This document shows, in pieces, positions 5,846 through 13,154 of a stretch of DNA of 47,654 nt. The notes below the pieces were generated by a model. That model was not told the DNA's origin, searched no databases, and saw nothing but the letters and a program-made list of their open reading frames with translations. The number at the start of each line of letters is the position of its first letter. Position 1 is the stretch's first letter. The position numbers and the translations under genes are program-made. Location of the stretch: positions 1-47,654 of the forward strand of contig JAGORG010000003.1 of the NCBI GenBank assembly GCA_018062965.1, written 5' to 3'. This stretch comes from Minisyncoccota bacterium. GTDB taxonomy: Bacteria > Patescibacteriota > Minisyncoccia > Phycocordibacterales > UBA5272.

Positions 5846-5916
5846 TGGGGTATCGTCTAATGGTAGGACATCAGGTTTTGGTCCTGAGTATCGAGGTTCG
5901 AGTCCTTGTACCCCAG
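5846..5916 (+). tRNA. tRNA-Gln (anticodon TTG)
   Basis: Full cloverleaf: acceptor TGGGGTA/TACCCCA, D arm, anticodon stem TCAGG/CCTGA around loop TTTTGGT with anticodon TTG, and T arm CGAGG-TTCGAGT-CCTTG. The discriminator base is G and CCA is not encoded. Its 3' end is the anchor for the repeats that run through the next 2.5 kb. Confidence 0.93.
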
Positions 5917-5921
5917 CAAAC
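5903..5921 (+). repeat. Putative att site in the tRNA-Gln 3' end
   Basis: TCCTTGTACCCCAGCAAAC, spanning the 3' half of the T arm, the acceptor strand and 5 nt beyond. It matches 8434-8452 at 18 of 19 positions. Shorter cognates end in CAGCAAAC at 7362-7369 and CAGCAA at 8222-8227. Confidence 0.65.
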
Positions 5922-5982
5922 ATAGTTTCGCGAATAAACGCTTGAGAATAAAACAAAAGTAGGTTCGAGTCCCGGAAGGGTT
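5914..5982 (+). repeat. 69-nt segment-start repeat, copy 1
   Basis: Runs from CAGCAAAC to a tRNA T-arm-like end, AGGTTCGAGTCCC...GGGTT (5961-5982). It aligns without gaps to 7362-7430 at 51 of 69 positions, with the final 22 nt nearly identical. It looks like a leftover tRNA 3'-end fragment at the start of an inserted segment. Confidence 0.65.
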
Positions 5983-5986
5983 CTGG

Positions 5987-5992
5987 TATACT
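5987..5992 (+). promoter_or_regulatory. -10 box of the Fic gene (leaderless)
   Basis: TATACT followed by exactly 6 nt and then ATG 5999. Transcription would begin at or next to the start codon. Confidence 0.55.
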
Positions 5993-5998
5993 TCAGAA

Positions 5999-7327
5999 AT
6001 GAAACATGAAATGGAGCCATTAGGTGAACCAACCATAAGAGAGACTGAACCAATGACAGTCTTTCAAGCAAAGCCGTTAGAGTCTTTCATTGCCCTGAAA
6101 GAGGAAATGATGAGGGAGATTGGTGTCCCCGATGGAGTAGTTTTGTGGCACAGGTTGCAGAATATAAACCACGACCTTCGCTCATTTCAGGTTGTTGATA
6201 AGGAATTGACACAACGATCACAGTCTCACAAAGTAACGGACAAGCTTCGAAATGTGCTTAGAAAAGCGAAACCTGTACCTGAGGATGGGCGAAGTATTAT
6301 GTTTAGTGGACGTGAAGATGTTCAACGTATTAAAACAGAAGATCTGGAAAAACTAAAAAGTGCTGTGTTGGAAGAGCTCAAGAGAATAGAACAGTTTAAT
6401 GTTCCGCTTGGAAACTTAACTGAAAGTGAACTGGATCCAGAAGTGGCTAGTCTCTTAACTAAATATGAAAAAAATAAAGTATACGAACTGTTAGAGCCAG
6501 GGGTAGGTATCGAATGGAATGAAGTTTTGCAGCTCGTTAGTTGTATAAGTAGTTCTTTTGATTTTCGAAACAGAAAAATTGCTGAATTTGTTGGGTACAA
6601 ATATGCGCGTTCTATACCGTCGGATATTGATATTGAAGCATTTATTCTGAATGTTCATCAGATTCTTTATTGGCATAAAGGTAAAAGTGCGTATCGAAAT
6701 GTTCTTCTTAAGAACTCTGGTGGTTTTAATGCTCCTGTTGATTATGTTTTATTGCCTCAGATGATGAAAAAGTTTTCTCAAGATGTTGAGGCCGTTGGTT
6801 ATATTGAGAAAAACGAGGACGCCCTAAAGGAGGCGCTCAGAAAATATCTGCTATTTGAAATCATACATCCATTCCAAGATGGCAACGGTCGCACAGGAAG
6901 AGCTTTGTTCGTATATCTTCAGAGGCGTTTTAAAGAAAAGGAATCCATGACGGATAAACCTGTGCATATACCCATTGCACGCTTTGAATCCGGAACAGCC
7001 TTTTCAGAAGAGCGTAAGGATGTTATGAATCACCCAGGCTCTTTATCGCTCGACGTTAACATCCTTGTTCATGAGCTTATGCGAAACAAAGAAATTTTGA
7101 CGCTGAGTGAAGAATTAGAGCGTTCTAAGGATATGGATATAGATAGGTTTTATGACGGCGTGTGTAAAATACTTGAATCAGAACAGATGAGTGCTGAATT
7201 GGATAAGCTGGTAGATATGATCAAAAAGCAGAGTGCTCTTGATGATATGTCTAGTCAAGACTGGAACATTGTATATGATTCTGCACGAAATAATCTACTG
7301 AAGCAGCGTTTTGAAAAAGCGAATTAG
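5999..7327 (+). CDS. Fic-domain protein (putative AMP transferase)
   Basis: 442 aa. The Fic core motif HPFQDGNGRTGR starts at catalytic His290, a full match to HxFx(D/E)GNGRxxR. Fic enzymes usually move AMP from ATP to a Ser/Thr/Tyr hydroxyl of a target protein. Residues 1-210 are a helical, charged region not assigned to a family, and about 360-442 is a charged helical tail. No separate antitoxin gene is beside it, and an inhibitory helix was not found with confidence. It is the first gene after tRNA-Gln and lies between two copies of the 69-nt repeat, so it was probably acquired. It could act as a toxin, in phage defence or in internal signalling. Confidence 0.88.
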   Translation: MKHEMEPLGEPTIRETEPMTVFQAKPLESFIALKEEMMREIGVPDGVVLWHRLQNINHDLRSFQVVDKELTQRSQSHKVTDKLRNVLRKAKPVPEDGRSIMFSGREDVQRIKTEDLEKLKSAVLEELKRIEQFNVPLGNLTESELDPEVASLLTKYEKNKVYELLEPGVGIEWNEVLQLVSCISSSFDFRNRKIAEFVGYKYARSIPSDIDIEAFILNVHQILYWHKGKSAYRNVLLKNSGGFNAPVDYVLLPQMMKKFSQDVEAVGYIEKNEDALKEALRKYLLFEIIHPFQDGNGRTGRALFVYLQRRFKEKESMTDKPVHIPIARFESGTAFSEERKDVMNHPGSLSLDVNILVHELMRNKEILTLSEELERSKDMDIDRFYDGVCKILESEQMSAELDKLVDMIKKQSALDDMSSQDWNIVYDSARNNLLKQRFEKAN

Positions 7328-7338
7328 TTTCTAAAATT

Positions 7339-7369
7339 GTTCCAACTTCGTCCCAAACCTTCAGCAAAC
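7339..7369 (+). repeat. Segment-end repeat A (GTTCCAACTTCGTCCC...CAGCAAAC)
   Basis: Begins 12 nt after the Fic stop. It belongs with 8199-8227 and 14786-14811 (GTTC/TTTC-AACTTyG-CCC...CTTCAGC) and ends in the CAGCAAAC seen at the tRNA end. Confidence 0.55.
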
Positions 7370-7430
7370 GTCATTTCGATAAACAAGCTTTGTGAAATAA
7401 GAAAAAGAAGGTTCGAGTCCCAGATGGGTT
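7362..7430 (+). repeat. 69-nt segment-start repeat, copy 2
   Basis: Gap-free match to 5914-5982 (51 of 69), ending in AGGTTCGAGTCCCAGATGGGTT. It precedes the terminator of the next minus-strand gene. Confidence 0.65.
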
Positions 7431-7435
7431 AAAAT

Positions 7436-7462
7436 AAAAAAGCCCACCGAAGTGGGCTTGCT
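7436..7462 (-). terminator. Terminator of the GC-rich deoxyribosyltransferase-like gene
   Basis: On minus, AAGCCCAC-ttcg-GTGGGCTT followed by a T-rich tract. Confidence 0.8.
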
Positions 7463-7489
7463 TCCAATCAGAAGACTTGTAGCGGGATC

Positions 7490-8095
7490 CTAGCGGTTCC
7501 TGCTTGCGACCAGGTCAGCGCAGAGCGATTCGAGATCGGAATACCTCGTCTGGTTGACTTCGTTCATGTAGTGGTTGGGAAGTCCCATGCGCTCCGCACC
7601 ATCCGGCCAGCCGATGAAGAGGCTGTTAGGCTGCCAGTGCACACTGCCGATCTGCATCTTCATGCCGAGGAAGATACCCAACTCGAGGTTGGTGTTGAGT
7701 CCGAGCAGTTCGTCCGCCTTGCGCGGAATCCAGAACACAGCATGGTCGGCGCACGTGGTCGGAGTGACGAGGCGACTGGATTCCCATTGGTGGATGTAGC
7801 TTCGCTCGGTGAAGTCGCCGAGGATTTCGAATCCGCGCGGTTCCGGGCAGTAGATCCAACCCGCAAAGCCGCGCTTGCGCAGGATTGCGACAGCAGTAGC
7901 TCGCCACTGGCAGTGGAGCACTTGGTTACGCGACGTGGGGCCGGCCAGGAAGATGGAGCCCTTCTGTTTGCTGTGCTCGGGCAGTTCAGCGTCGTGGTAG
8001 AGCTGGACCATCGGGTCCGTCCACATGGCCTTGAGTTCGGTCAGCAACGTTTCGTGTGCGACCACATAACCTTCTTGTCGATCGAGAGTGGGCAT
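7490..8095 (-). CDS. Nucleoside 2-deoxyribosyltransferase-like protein (GC-rich orphan)
   Basis: 201 aa. It has the features of the Nuc_deoxyri_tr2-type family: SIFLAGPTSR (about 47-56), a WRATAVAIL helix, YCPEPRG (about 82-88), a WESSRL helix and the acidic NLELGIFLGM (about 136-145), where the catalytic Glu is expected. The likely activity is on the N-glycosidic bond of (deoxy)nucleosides. The gene is visibly richer in G+C than everything around it. It has a GAGGAGGCAAC ribosome site, a TAGACA-17-TAGTGT promoter and its own terminator. It sits inside the tRNA-anchored array, antisense to its neighbours. Transfer from a GC-rich donor is inferred. Confidence 0.8.
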   Translation of the reverse strand: MPTLDRQEGYVVAHETLLTELKAMWTDPMVQLYHDAELPEHSKQKGSIFLAGPTSRNQVLHCQWRATAVAILRKRGFAGWIYCPEPRGFEILGDFTERSYIHQWESSRLVTPTTCADHAVFWIPRKADELLGLNTNLELGIFLGMKMQIGSVHWQPNSLFIGWPDGAERMGLPNHYMNEVNQTRYSDLESLCADLVASRNR

Positions 8096-8158
8096 GTTGC
8101 CTCCTCATGGTTGGAATGAGCCTCTTAATTGGTTGGGGAAGAGTAACCCGCTGAAAGT

Positions 8159-8187
8159 ACACTACAATAATTCAATACTTTTGTCTA
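8159..8187 (-). promoter_or_regulatory. Sigma70-type promoter of the GC-rich deoxyribosyltransferase-like gene
   Basis: Minus-strand TAGACA (8182-8187), 17-nt spacer, TAGTGT (8159-8164). Both boxes are imperfect but the spacing is ideal. Confidence 0.4.
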
Positions 8188-8198
8188 TATTCAAAAAA

Positions 8199-8227
8199 GT
8201 TCGAACTTCGTCCCAGAGCCTCAGCAA
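8199..8227 (+). repeat. Segment-end repeat B
   Basis: GTTCGAACTTCGTCCCAGAGC then CTCAGCAA, related to repeat A. Its end CCTCAGCAA (8219-8227) is repeated exactly at 8442-8450, so the two copies bracket the hairpin element. Confidence 0.55.
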
Positions 8228-8450
8228 CACACTAAAACACACATGTCAAGTACATGTGTGTTTTAGTGTGGAAAATAGCGGTAGCTATTTTCGTTGCTAG
8301 GAGTACAGCACATGAACTGCTTCATGTGTGTAAGGACGAGAAAGCCGCAGTGATGTTTTTCTAGCAAGAAAAACCACGAGGAGTGGCCGGCGAACTTTTC
8401 GAGTGACGACGAGAAAAGATTTGTCGGAGAGATTCCTTGTACCTCAGCAA
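8228..8450. other. 223-bp multi-hairpin element bounded by 9-bp direct repeats
   Basis: Six consecutive strong inverted repeats fill most of this stretch: a 19-bp perfect stem with 5-nt loop (8228-8270); a 9-bp perfect stem with loop GGTA (8271-8292); an 8-bp stem (8309-8328); a 7-bp stem (8355-8374) whose loop TAGCAA can pair with TTGCTA at 8294-8299 as a pseudoknot; CCAC/GTGG with loop GAGGA (8374-8386, sharing one C with the previous stem); and a 14-bp stem with one bulge and two G-U pairs (8387-8427). CCTCAGCAA precedes the element (8219-8227) and closes it (8442-8450). The short open frames across it look unreal. It may be a structured RNA, a folded single-stranded DNA recombination substrate, or both. 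No known family recognised. Confidence 0.6.
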
Positions 8451-8764: not shown

Positions 8765-9616
8765 ATGTCGAAAACTATAAAGATTTTCTTAATAGATGGC
8801 GAACCAAACGGATTAAAGACTGTAGAACTTAGCAATTGGGTTGGACAGGCTGTTGTAATACCGAGAAATAAGTTAAGGGATATTAAAGATCGTGCAGACT
8901 GCAACAAACCGTCAGTATACTTCTTAGTGGGAAAAGATAATGAAGGTGAGTTACTTCAAACTGCTTATATTGGCGAAGCCGAGAATCTATGGAACCGACT
9001 AACTACACATGACGGCTCTAAAGATTTCTGGCAAATAGCTGTCGCATTTGTAAGTAAAGATAATAACCTAACAAAAGCTCATGTAAGATATTTGGAGAGT
9101 AGATCTATTGATATTGCAACTAGTGTAAAAAGATACCAATTAAACAACGGTGCAAAATCTTCTATTCCTTCTCTGTCAGAATCTGATATTGCTGACATGG
9201 AAGAATTTCTTTTAAACTTAAGATTATTACTAACGGCAGTAGGTTATCCAATTTTACAAGAACCGATCTCTAAAGAAACTAAGGATTTAGATAACCCCCT
9301 ACTATATTGTAAGGGTAAAAATGCTATAGGCACTGGAAGAATGACAAATGACGGTTTTGTTGTATATGAAGATTCAACGGCAACTTCTGAAATAAGTAAT
9401 GCTGTTTATGAGAGAAATACTAAGACAATAGAAAAATTGATACAGAATGGGTATATTCAAAAACAACAAGACGGTCTTTATAAATTTGTAAAAGAGTATG
9501 TATTTAATAGTCCGAGCGCAGCTTCCGATATTATACTTGGTAATTCTACAAGTGGTTGGAAAAAGTGGAAGACAGATTCTGGTAAAACCCTAGAAGAACT
9601 ATATGAGTCAAATTAA
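8765..9616 (+). CDS. GIY-YIG nuclease family protein with C-terminal DUF4357-like region
   Basis: 283 aa. A GIY-YIG-type fold is seen at about residues 50-120: VYFLVGK, AYIGEAENLWNRL (YIG and the catalytic Arg), DFWQIAVAFVSKDNNLTKAHVRYLESR (the acidic residue in YLE). The C-terminus (about 240-283) with VFNSPSAASDIILGNSTSGWKKW matches DUF4357. Proteins of this architecture are common beside restriction-modification genes, but their role is not settled; a second nuclease or an accessory restriction function is possible. It is translationally coupled: one base after the controller, and overlapping the first methyltransferase by 14 nt. AT-rich like the rest of the operon. Confidence 0.85.
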   Translation: MSKTIKIFLIDGEPNGLKTVELSNWVGQAVVIPRNKLRDIKDRADCNKPSVYFLVGKDNEGELLQTAYIGEAENLWNRLTTHDGSKDFWQIAVAFVSKDNNLTKAHVRYLESRSIDIATSVKRYQLNNGAKSSIPSLSESDIADMEEFLLNLRLLLTAVGYPILQEPISKETKDLDNPLLYCKGKNAIGTGRMTNDGFVVYEDSTATSEISNAVYERNTKTIEKLIQNGYIQKQQDGLYKFVKEYVFNSPSAASDIILGNSTSGWKKWKTDSGKTLEELYESN

Positions 9617-10652
9617 AAATAAAACCATTGCAATAAATAATGACTTACTTAACCTACAAAGCCGTAGGTATATTGGTAATAAATATAAGCTATCAGAATG
9701 GATATTTTCAATTATAGACAAAGAATGTAAAGGAGAAACTTTTGCAGACATTTTTGCAGGGACAGGGGTTGTATCTGCTCAAGCAAATGGCAGGTATAAA
9801 AAAGTTATTTTGAATGATTTTCTATATTCTAATTATAATATTTACCAAGCCTTTTTTAGTAAATCAAAATTCAGTATTGATCTAATTAATCAATACTTAA
9901 AAAAGTACAACAGTTTAGATCCAGCAAAAATAAAAGATAACTATTTTTCAATAAGTTTTGGAAATAAATATTTTACAGCTGATTCAGCTAAGTTAATTGG
10001 ATATATACGCGAGGACTTGGAAAAAAATAAATCCAAAATGTCAGAAAAAGAATATTATATTCTAACCACATCACTACTTTATTCTGCTGACAGTATAGCA
10101 AATACAGTTGGTCATTATGACGCCTACTTTAAAAACAAAAACTACGTAACAAAATCATTTTCAATGAAAATGATCCAACCAGTAAAAACAAATAGTGCAG
10201 ATATTTACAGAGAAGATGCAAACACTTTAGTTAAACGAATAAAAGCAGATATTGTATATATTGATCCTCCATATAATTCAAGACAATATAGTAGATTTTA
10301 TCATGTCTTAGAAAATTTAATTAAATGGCAAAAACCAAAACTATTTGGGACAGCACTAAAACCTGAACCTGAAAATATGAGCGACTATTGTAGAGTTAGT
10401 GCTAAAGATCGATTTGCAGAATTAATTAAAGATATTAAAGCAAAGTATATTGTTGTTTCTTATAACAATACGTACGAATCAAAAAGTAATTCTTCTGAAA
10501 ATAAAATAACCCACGCCGAACTTCTTACAATCTTAAATAGCAGAGGAAAAACAAAGATATTTGAAAAAGAATATAGGCACTTTAATTCTGGAAAAACAAA
10601 CTTTAATAATCATAAGGAATTTTTATTTGTTACATATGTCAAAGATAACTAA
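9603..10652 (+). CDS. D12-class DNA adenine-N6 methyltransferase (M1)
   Basis: 349 aa. SAM-binding motif I is ADIFAGTGVV (about 48-57) and catalytic motif IV is DPPY at 221-224 within DIVYIDPPYNSRQYSRFYH. The segment YIGNKYKLSEWI (23-34) is typical of the class. It would methylate adenine in one strand of the recognition site. Two different adenine methyltransferases in a row indicate an asymmetric target, with each enzyme protecting one strand, as in type IIS systems. It overlaps the upstream GIY-YIG gene and the downstream methyltransferase gene. Confidence 0.88.
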   Translation: MSQIKNKTIAINNDLLNLQSRRYIGNKYKLSEWIFSIIDKECKGETFADIFAGTGVVSAQANGRYKKVILNDFLYSNYNIYQAFFSKSKFSIDLINQYLKKYNSLDPAKIKDNYFSISFGNKYFTADSAKLIGYIREDLEKNKSKMSEKEYYILTTSLLYSADSIANTVGHYDAYFKNKNYVTKSFSMKMIQPVKTNSADIYREDANTLVKRIKADIVYIDPPYNSRQYSRFYHVLENLIKWQKPKLFGTALKPEPENMSDYCRVSAKDRFAELIKDIKAKYIVVSYNNTYESKSNSSENKITHAELLTILNSRGKTKIFEKEYRHFNSGKTNFNNHKEFLFVTYVKDN

Positions 10653-11550
10653 AAAAATAATTAGATCCCCACTGTTTTATGTGGGAGACAAATATAAATT
10701 AATGAAGCAGTTAATAGAACTGTTTCCTTTAAATGTTAATAATTTCTATGAGCCATTCACCGGTGGAGGTACTGTTTTTCTAAATGTGGAAGCGAAAAAA
10801 TACTACCTAAACGATATAGATAAGCATTTAGTAAATATTCACAAGTACTTAATAAGTAATTCTTCTAATAAAGATGTTTTCTTTAAAGAAGTAGGTAAAA
10901 TTATTAAAAAATACAAGCTTTCTAAATCTTATGACACAGATATAGTTCCAATATCTTTAAAAAAAGAGTTCAAGAAAACATACTATGCTAAATTTAATAA
11001 AGAAGGATACGACAAACTTAAATTAAGTGTAAATAATTATAAGAAAAATGATCCTTTGATATTGTATATCTTATTAATATACGGTTTTAATAGAATGCTT
11101 AGATTCAACGGTGGTGGCAAATTTAATTTACCTGTAGGTAATGTTGATTTTAATAAAAATGTTGTATTAGCATTGAATCAATACTTTGATTATTTTAAAA
11201 ATAAAAAAGTTAAATTTACCTCAAGTGATTTTAGAAAGTATTTTGAAAAAAGAACATTTGTAAAAGATGACTTCGTCTACTTAGACCCACCCTATTTAAT
11301 AACATTTAGTGAATATAATAAGAAATGGGGAGAAAAAGAAGAAACTGATTTACTAAATATTATTGATAAGCTAAATAAAAAAGGGGTTAAATTCGCATTA
11401 TCAAATGTTACAGAATACAAAGGGAAGAAAAACACAATTTTAATTAACTGGATGAAGAAGTATAATATACATAAAATAAAAAGTAACTACATTAGCTACC
11501 ACAATAATAACCAAAAAGATATTAAGGAGGTACTAATCACAAATTATTAG
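10636..11550 (+). CDS. Dam-like DNA adenine-N6 methyltransferase (M2)
   Basis: 304 aa from ATG 10636 (17-nt overlap with M1). An earlier in-frame ATG at 10561 would add 25 residues unlike the family. Motif I is PFTGGGTV (40-47), motif IV DPPY at 217-220, and GFNRMLRFNGGGKFNLPVG (150-168) resembles Dam/DpnII-type enzymes that act on GATC. This supports a GATC-containing site for the system. D12 class. Confidence 0.88.
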   Translation: MSKITKKIIRSPLFYVGDKYKLMKQLIELFPLNVNNFYEPFTGGGTVFLNVEAKKYYLNDIDKHLVNIHKYLISNSSNKDVFFKEVGKIIKKYKLSKSYDTDIVPISLKKEFKKTYYAKFNKEGYDKLKLSVNNYKKNDPLILYILLIYGFNRMLRFNGGGKFNLPVGNVDFNKNVVLALNQYFDYFKNKKVKFTSSDFRKYFEKRTFVKDDFVYLDPPYLITFSEYNKKWGEKEETDLLNIIDKLNKKGVKFALSNVTEYKGKKNTILINWMKKYNIHKIKSNYISYHNNNQKDIKEVLITNY

Positions 11551-11559
11551 AAAATATAT

Positions 11560-13154
11560 ATGTCAAGAAAAGCAACATACAAACCATTATTATTTACTAC
11601 CACAGTAAGAAATCCGAGCAGGATGAAGGTTTTGTTAAATATTTTTAGTAAATACGACAAACAAAACCTGACTAGTTCTCTCTGCGAAGAAATCATGGGA
11701 GAAATAATTAGATATGGATTATACAGACCGACTAGGGGTGTCACTCCTGAAATAGAAAGGAAATGGGGATCAAAAAGAATCTCTGAAAATTCCCCAATTG
11801 GTGTGGAATTACTTAATGATCAAGAAGTATCTAGTCAATTGGAATTAAACCCTCAGGATCATAAAGAGGCTGGTTTTGAGCATGGTTGGCCATCTCGCTT
11901 TGTAACTGTATTTGATTTTGCAAAAGAACTAGGCTTTGTTTATTACTGGATGAATGAGCCTATTAAGTTTTCTGAAATAGGAATAAAACTAGCAAACTCA
12001 ATTGAAATTAAATTGGAGGATAATTTTATCTCTGTATCAGAGTCTCACCCAGAATTTGAACAACAAGCATTTTTAAATTCATTAGCTAAGTATCAAAGAA
12101 ATAACCCGTTTGTAAAAGTGCTAAACGATAACGTACCTCTAATTCTTTTACTTGAAGTTATAAAAAAATTAACAGCGATCCCGAACTTAATGGTGCGGGA
12201 ATATCAAAATTAGAGTTACCGCTAGTTATTTTTTGGAAAGATAATGACTCTGAAAAACTTTATCAACTCATTAAAAAAATAAGAAAAGAATTTGGATATC
12301 AACCAACATGGGAAACTATAGTTGATATTTGTGTAAATAAAATTATGGGCGGAGATTTTAAAAAGTTTAAGCCCGAGTCTATTATGGTTGAGTACCCTGA
12401 CGAATTCATAAGAAAAATGAGATTAACCGGATTAATTTCATTAAGGGGTGCTGGTAGATTTATAGATATAAACCATAATGAAAATGAAAAAGTTGAGTAT
12501 GTATTAAACAAATATTCTGTTTACAAAAAATTTGATACTGAAAAGGAGTATTTCGATTATGCATCAACAATAGATGAGAACTTAGTATCTATAGAAGCTA
12601 AAGTTATACCTGCTTCTGATAAGGAAAAATTCTTGGAAAAATGGACTGAAACATTTAGTTGGGATCAAATAAAAATTGAGCTTACAAATCTCGCAACAAA
12701 GAATTTAACCAAAGATGAAATTCTTAAATATTTAGCTAATCCTGTTAGATTAGAGTTTTTAACTGCATTGGCTTTGAAATCGAAATTTCCTCAGGTTAAA
12801 GTCATACCTAATTACCCAATTGACGATGAAGGTATACCAACTTCAACTGCTGGTGGAACGGGTAATATTGGTGATATAGAATGTTTTGAGGGATCTAGAG
12901 GTATTTTAGTGGAGGTTACTATGTCAGAAGGGAGAACTCAAACAATGATGGAGGTATGGCCAATAAGTAGACATCTTAAAGAATTTACAAAGAAAGCCCC
13001 AGAATCAATGTGTTATTTTATTGCACCAAGTTTATTTAGCGACACAGTAAGTCAGATTGGTTATGTTAAACAAAGTGAAAATTTAAATATACAACCAAAA
13101 ACTATAACTGATTTTGTTACCCATTTGGAAAATACGCAAGTTCTATACATTTAA
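11560..13154 (+). pseudogene. AlwI-family type IIS restriction endonuclease, frameshifted
   Basis: Two frames together encode about 531 aa. The first is open from ATG 11560 to TAG 12213; the second carries on to TAA 13154. Continuity breaks at a run of seven A (12162-12168): adding one A restores EVIKKINSDPELNGAGISKLEL and an unbroken protein. The C-terminal half has the RE_AlwI-type core, LEFLTALALKSKFP, DDEGIPTSTAGG, GDIECFEGSRGILVEVTM and EVWPISRHLKEF, with the PD-(D/E)XK-like Asp and Glu in GDIE...VEVT. As read, the nuclease is split from its catalytic half. A homopolymer sequencing error, true decay or slippage at A7 are all possible. Last gene of the operon, 9 nt after M2. Confidence 0.8.

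Follow-up and report, generated by a model that had tools for sequence, protein, structure and literature searches.

What is the densely folded stretch at positions 8228-8450 of this DNA, and how did it come to lie in line with a transfer RNA (tRNA) gene? The window analysed here is the whole 47,654-nt stretch of contig JAGORG010000003.1 (assembly GCA_018062965.1, from a Minisyncoccota bacterium). A sequence-only reading had described the unit as a set of stacked hairpins between short direct repeats, and had offered two identities for it: a new class of noncoding RNA, or a recombination site that works as folded single-stranded DNA. The data point towards a mobile or recombination-type element. 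We show below that the unit belongs to a family with an established architecture, junction, host-gene matching and pattern of covariation. Its copies contain antisense and sense copies of the 3' end of the adjacent gene, which the earlier reading missed. On this basis we give an even chance to the reading that the window unit represents a family of tiny, guide-bearing integrative elements of Patescibacteria that encode no protein and occupy the 3' ends of tRNA genes and also of transfer-messenger RNA (tmRNA) and topA genes. The family is not described in the open-access literature searched, and a folded, gene-free element behind tRNA genes is apparently undescribed so far.

Folding, covariation and distribution of the family

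The stacked hairpins are confirmed, with stems of 19, 9, 8-9, 8 (plus a 3-bp base) and 14 bp. Folded as RNA, the plus strand of 8219-8450 has a minimum free energy of -97.2 kcal/mol against a mean of -57.1 kcal/mol for shuffled sequences (z -11.5), and none of 200 shuffles equals it. The minus strand folds more weakly (z -6.6). With the two leading hairpins removed, the remaining 8294-8450 has a z of -5.0 when folded as RNA and of -4.5 when folded as DNA. The element has no open reading frame (ORF) of its own; the small ORFs that overlap it are mechanical only, in agreement with the earlier view that it holds no credible gene. Rfam 15, run over the whole window, finds tRNA only, with nothing but chance matches at the element up to E 10. 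At gathering score, the window and the other loci tested give matches to tRNA and tmRNA alone.

Homologues are abundant in the genus. A blastn search finds four further copies in the window's own genome (646 kb) and copies in 15 of the 16 genus genomes, and a covariance model (R1) built from 50 copies finds all 16 positive, with 2-30 copies each. Each of the four in the window's genome directly follows a tRNA gene and repeats parts of that tRNA's 3' half, once in antisense and once in sense. Among 240 sampled Patescibacteria genomes, 29 are positive. A DNA pattern of the distant form was also scanned over one genome per species (about 85,000 species), giving 80 loci, within which the model confirms 54 matches. 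Almost all confirmed loci lie in records titled as Patescibacteria (Kaiserbacteria, Yanofskybacteria, Nomurabacteria, Komeilibacteria, Uhrbacteria, Magasanikbacteria, Saccharibacteria and others), the remainder being a few "bacterium" records and one Elusimicrobia record. The latter, a contig titled Elusimicrobia GWA2_51_34 (L150, 6184-6661), holds three model matches and is the sole named record outside Patescibacteria. Pattern matches in other phyla fail the covariance model, as do five in viral sequences, and the phage, plasmid and viral collections yielded no element.

The earlier reading had proposed a search for compensatory changes. In an alignment of 138 distinct copies (A2), which was fitted to the covariance model and hence leans towards it, double changes occur in all 37 consensus pairs. 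The double-change cells number 1400, where shuffles have 395, and 96% of cells are paired against 40-53% in slid controls. An independent MAFFT alignment (A1) shows compensatory changes in 34 of the 37 pairs. One hairpin, with a CTGC loop, has nine pairs, each with double changes, and 97.9% of its cells are paired. Several unpaired features are also conserved across the family, namely the CTGC loop, an AGCA loop and a GSAG/CGAG internal loop. Two G.U (G.T) wobbles in the core helix P4 are kept in 116 and 92 of 131 rows. Perfect palindromes can trouble assembly, so the possibility that the unit is an assembly artefact or a set of chance palindromes deserves mention. Given compensatory changes in every consensus pair, copies in independent assemblies across the phylum and a junction that is exact to the nucleotide, we regard it as practically negligible.

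The core is not uniform. Mini variants lack P2 and P3 and retain P4 against the sense copy, and other core classes follow the same overall plan. A different core class (GGGGAAGGGGTCGGGAAACGG...) lies behind tRNA-Gly genes (L061, 1077-1305; L016, 1138-1230; L036, near tRNA-Gly(TCC)), and carries a perfect 22-23-nt antisense of the tRNA 3' half without the CTGC hairpin. At two further loci (L011, 2472-2670, and L049, near 3165) the core contains an additional structured insertion, TCCCGGTTTCTTAGATTGTAGTCAATCTTTTGAAACCGCAGTCCTTTAGG-like and about 45 nt long.

Guide arms, sense copy and host genes

The general layout of the family is 5'-[trailer hairpin(s)]-A'-[CTGC-loop hairpin]-G'-[core P2, P3, P4]-G-A-3'. 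Here A' and G' are antisense, and A and G sense, to the acceptor 3' strand and the T arm of the host tRNA, respectively. In the window the host gene is tRNA-Gln(TTG) at 5846-5917 on the plus strand, identified by ARAGORN, Rfam and sequence comparison, and its 3' end (5898-5919) is the sequence that the element copies in both senses. The conserved family element comprises 8294-8428 together with the sense copy at 8429-8450, all on the plus strand. It begins with A' (8294-8306; TTGCTAGGAGTAC, against TTGCTGGGGTAC as reverse complement), assigned from the sequence and from own-tRNA matching across the family. The hairpin that separates the two guide parts follows at 8308-8329 (8308-8316/8321-8329, 8-9 bp, CTGC loop at 8317-8320), and then G' at 8331-8342 (TAAGGACGAGAA), antisense to the T arm and T loop, whose GAA end pairs across TTC54-56. 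The core helices, like the separating hairpin, are assigned by covariation: P2 (8345-8346/8380-8381, within 8345-8381); P3, of 8 bp with a 3-bp base (8355-8362/8367-8374 and 8350-8352/8375-8377) and the AGCA loop at 8363-8366; and P4, of 14 bp (8387-8427; 8387-8400/8413-8427), with wobbles G8390.T8424 and G8392.T8422, which adjoins the sense copy. The sense copy itself runs from R57 of the tRNA and is partly decayed (GAGATTCCTTGTACCTCAGCAA, against GAGTCCTTGTACCCCAGCAA).

This layout changes the meaning of several features noticed earlier. The 9-bp direct repeats CCTCAGCAA are indeed present at 8219-8227 and 8442-8450, but rather than being brackets private to the unit they are decayed tRNA-Gln(TTG) 3' ends, the original being TACCCCAGCAA at 5909-5919. 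The two upstream stems are both perfect, as stated: a 19-bp hairpin with a 5-nt loop at 8228-8270 (8228-8246/8252-8270) and a 9-bp hairpin at 8271-8292 (8271-8279/8284-8292), both on the plus strand. However, they belong to the tRNA trailer, and among the copies found they recur behind the genome's other tRNA-Gln gene, tRNA-Gln(CTG) (G000:C4, 90% identity), so that a recent arrival does not follow from their perfection. Behind tRNA-Gln(CTG) (G000:C4:10309-10511) the antisense of the tRNA 3' end runs unbroken for 26 nt and the core is different; this copy lacks the CTGC hairpin, yet contains the window copy's two trailer hairpins, the second in a related form. The suggested pseudoknot between 8361-8367 and 8294-8300 falls away. 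It is possible in one of 79 copies with an AGCA loop, and arises in the window by chance because tRNA-Gln there ends in CAGCAA.

Across the family the arms match their own host. The longest exact antisense match averages 9.9 nt to the copy's own tRNA against 5.7 nt to other isoacceptors, and the longest exact sense match 12.1 against 5.1 nt. The sense copy begins at T-loop position R57 in all 61 readable copies and never includes TTC54-56, while G' ends in GAA, pairing across TTC, in 57 of 59. Since the start of the sense copy is fixed and G' pairs across TTC, the guide spans a fixed junction, C56|R57. The junction sequence is C|R, in TTC|RA or GAC|AA. The acceptor arms are more decayed than the T-arm arms: of 98 copies, 33 have a perfect antisense acceptor and 30 a perfect sense acceptor.

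The unit was earlier seen as anchored to a tRNA gene, and this holds for the family. At the fetched loci, 117 of 143 model matches have a tRNA or tmRNA 3' end on the same strand within 300 bp upstream, two copies sitting behind tmRNA. In a whole-genome census, the matches within 250 bp of a tRNA number 23 of 24 in G006 (by chance, about 1e-45), 16 of 23 in G010 and 5 of 7 in G000, and the tRNAs bearing an element number 23 of 40, 14 of 35 and 5 of 37, respectively. In several exceptions an island separates the tRNA from the element: tRNA-Gln in the window, and tRNA-His, -Ala and -Leu in G010, where the Ala and Leu islands encode large serine recombinases. In G000 a comparable recombinase gene separates a tRNA-Ser from a distant element, and large serine recombinase islands between tRNA genes and elements are recorded at L238, L239 and L240. 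At L241 (about 6760-6990, minus strand), an element directly follows a tRNA that ARAGORN missed, which, as read by eye, is seemingly interrupted by a group I intron-like sequence.

In two exceptions to the tRNA rule the element occupies the 3' end of a protein-coding gene whose product reads as DNA topoisomerase I (topA), with a zinc-ribbon C-terminus; a structural RNA host was sought at these loci (L072 and L074) and not found. The gene is present in all 16 genomes, and is occupied in four (G006 at L258, G010 at L263, G014 at L267 and G015 at L264) and empty in twelve. A gene reading as relA/spoT lies downstream of topA in several of the empty genomes and in the occupied G015. A copy of the topA 3' end lies on either side of the element, and it is the one within the gene that the A'-hairpin-G' guide fits, down to codon-level differences from the right-hand copy. 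It is worth adding that tRNA mimicry is rejected as the sole reason for placing a hairpin between the acceptor and T-arm antisense parts, because topA copies retain this layout with no tRNA.

These observations bear on the proposal that the element is an RNA acting in cis for its host, in which pairing of the downstream antisense arms to the 3' half of a pre-tRNA or mRNA would govern how the transcript is terminated, processed or turned over, and the sense copy would compete and free the guide. The stronger folding of the plus strand, the conserved G.U pairs and loops, the fit of the topA guides to the copy in the functional gene and not to the displaced one, and a persistence at the same tRNA between genomes that exceeds chance (see below) are all as expected of such an RNA. 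However, many tRNAs have no element (17 of 40 in G006, 32 of 37 in G000), topA is mostly empty, and two thirds of the copies do not have a perfect acceptor antisense. Moreover, the element sometimes lies kilobases away beyond islands, as in the window; in many copies a terminator-like hairpin stands between tRNA and element; and there are tandem arrays. We consider a host-serving cis RNA rather unlikely.

Possible mobility, acting strand and partner enzyme

Comparison of the copies suggests that the element is mobile, from the occupancy of topA, the sharing of cores and the tandem arrays. In G006 one identical mini core follows the tRNAs for Val, Arg, Ser (two) and Leu, and in G013 near-identical full cores lie behind Arg, Lys and Leu tRNAs. 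Such cores behind different tRNAs of one genome are flanked by each tRNA's own arms. Tandem copies behind a single tRNA also occur, and the patchy distribution over the phylum counts in the same direction. The nearest core is found behind another tRNA of the same genome in 64 cases, and behind the same tRNA of another genome in 25 (shuffled mean 15, maximum 23). For the CTGC hairpin, the nearest relative is at the same tRNA of another genome in 37 cases, against 19.5 in shuffles. Copies are therefore retained at their loci, and there is also spread or conversion of cores within genomes.

The vertical part of this signal, seen in both cores and hairpins, and the finding that copies with a common core differ in their hairpins, would fit old and now immobile elements at each tRNA, whose cores have been homogenised by gene conversion. 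The occupied and empty topA loci and the patchy occupancy of tRNAs do not fit such a history, which would in any case still require an origin by insertion. We think it quite improbable.

For the integrative reading, we hypothesise that insertion occurs at the C56|R57 junction. This would leave the 3' end of the gene whole, with another copy of it on the far side of the element, which matches the observed topology. As the target would be left intact, further elements could insert, producing tandem arrays. The acting form may be the folded plus strand, as RNA or single-stranded DNA, with the site chosen by base pairing of the guide and the exchange made by an enzyme supplied in trans or by the folded core itself. 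More boldly, this could be a new kind of nucleic-acid-guided integration, in which a protein-less element of about 150-220 bp acts as a folded strand, spans a fixed junction in the 3' ends of conserved genes with its two-part guide, is inserted by its own core or by an unrecognised housekeeping enzyme, and acquires a matching guide at each new target. We offer this tentatively, as a possibility that falls clearly short of even.

Several points weigh against an integrative element. No partner enzyme emerges: reverse transcriptase (RT), Y1 transposase, IS110 recombinase and large serine recombinase are each missing from copy-rich genomes. RT is absent from the carriers G000, G004, G007, G009, G010, G013 and G015; the Y1 HUH transposase from 11 of the 16 genus genomes, including the copy-rich G006, G009 and G010; and the IS110 (DEDD) recombinase from all 16. 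A search of gene neighbourhoods for a partner returns only the tRNA neighbours and island recombinases as recurrent. At least one tyrosine recombinase, usually one per genus genome, is present in every genome tested, whether or not elements were detected; that of G000 reads as Xer-like, and the universal Xer occurs also in genomes without copies. No circle and no transposition event was observed, the pattern of inheritance is partly vertical, and gene conversion, with no transposition, could account for the spread of cores. Nor does the reading account for the renewal of the guide at a new target. Finally, the right-hand copies of topA keep a coding-like pattern of change: across the four genomes, 46 of the codons in which they differ from the left copies are synonymous and 5 nonsynonymous. 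Simple insertion followed by decay does not predict this, and pure staggered-cut duplication followed by decay fails here for this reason. Either the two topA copies met recently through transfer between species, or both ends are in use. Identity to relatives did not reveal which copy is foreign.

Evidence on whether the strand acts as RNA or DNA is divided. The plus-strand bias, the conserved G.U pairs and the conserved loops favour RNA. The remaining pairs favour DNA: G.U makes up 2.1% of paired cells (the two conserved wobbles excluded) against 5.0% in tRNA stems at the same loci, and the ratio of G.U to A.C is 2.8 against 15.9. A mechanistic version of the integrative reading would make the element an attC-like site, folded as single-stranded DNA and used by the resident Xer-type or another tyrosine recombinase with no RNA stage. 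The pair counts, the presence of one Xer-type enzyme in every genome tested, and the absence of a promoter-like match (sigma-70 consensus) at the window copy speak for it. Nevertheless, the two conserved wobbles and the many conserved unpaired bases appear RNA-like, Xer is found also in copy-free genomes, and the mismatch counts are inflated by cells misaligned in model fitting. A purely DNA-based site is in our view unlikely.

The window locus and known systems

The window element now lies 2.4 kb from its tRNA-Gln. The intervening 5918-8227 contains two cargo units behind the tRNA, forming a tRNA-anchored cassette array, with genes for a Fic protein (5999-7327) and a deoxyribosyltransferase-like protein (7490-8095; below the Pfam cut-off). 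Both units have similar left ends (...AGGTTCGAGTCCC...) and similar right ends (TTCNAACTTCGTCCC...TCAGCAA). The second is closed by a displaced copy resembling the tRNA 3' end, with terminal CCTCAGCAA (8193-8227, plus strand, from pattern matches), which forms a 35-nt direct repeat (83%) with 7333-7367. Later cargo insertions at tRNA-Gln would have pushed the element away from its tRNA. Beyond the element, 9603-13154 holds a restriction-modification cluster of two D12 adenine methyltransferases and an AlwI-like endonuclease, the latter apparently split across two reading frames (11560-12213 and 12345-13154).

The element resembles several known systems, each in part. Islands and satellites that integrate at tRNA genes insert at the 3' ends of these, of tmRNA or of conserved genes, leave the gene end intact with a second copy displaced, and can occupy a site in tandem. 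The element likewise leaves the host 3' end intact and a second copy displaced, as seen in the sense copies and at topA. Unlike the islands, it is about 150-220 bp long with no recombinase or cargo, has an antisense guide and a conserved folded core, and uses one core family for many tRNA families. REP/BIME palindromes and IS200/IS605-type elements are short, multicopy intergenic hairpins with strand-specific folding, which is also true of the element; it differs in being confined to tRNAs, in its long target-complementary arms, and in the lack of Y1 noted above. As in group I and II introns, an internal guide pairs with the insertion site, but the element lies beyond an intact gene copy, Rfam gives no intron match there, and many carriers have no RT.

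The attC site of integrons is an imperfect palindrome that works as a folded strand, with structure conserved over sequence, and cassettes form insertion arrays at a fixed site (PMC3053210). The likeness to attC, a strand-folded conserved structure (37 of 37 pairs covarying, with plus-strand bias), holds in the general sense of folding only; like cassettes, the elements form arrays at one fixed site. Unlike these, the element sits at the tRNA T loop or topA rather than attI, bears arms from the host gene 3' end in both antisense and sense but no gene cargo, and has a branched core instead of one hairpin. attC sites also have R/L boxes with a GTTRRRY-type core site and extrahelical bases; the junction seen in the element is the C|R given above. 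An integron integrase was not found, with no IntI-specific model search made. The bridge RNA of IS110 is a structured noncoding RNA with a target-complementary guide, whose left and right guides address opposite strands, and with a donor-binding loop (PMC11208160). The element is comparable in size, is likewise a structured noncoding nucleic acid, and carries a guide that complements its insertion target. It differs in that its two-part antisense guide addresses one strand across the whole site, and neither a second guide nor a donor-binding loop is seen in its consensus structure.

Patescibacteria have reduced genomes with little room for extras. Should the element indeed move by guide pairing, few known integrating elements would be smaller. 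It would hold both the target and the guide for it at the ends of essential genes, and would stand beside bridge RNAs and integrons as a compact natural form of nucleic-acid-guided integration. If, on the other hand, it serves the host as an RNA, it would constitute a widespread class of tRNA-associated RNA with no Rfam entry.
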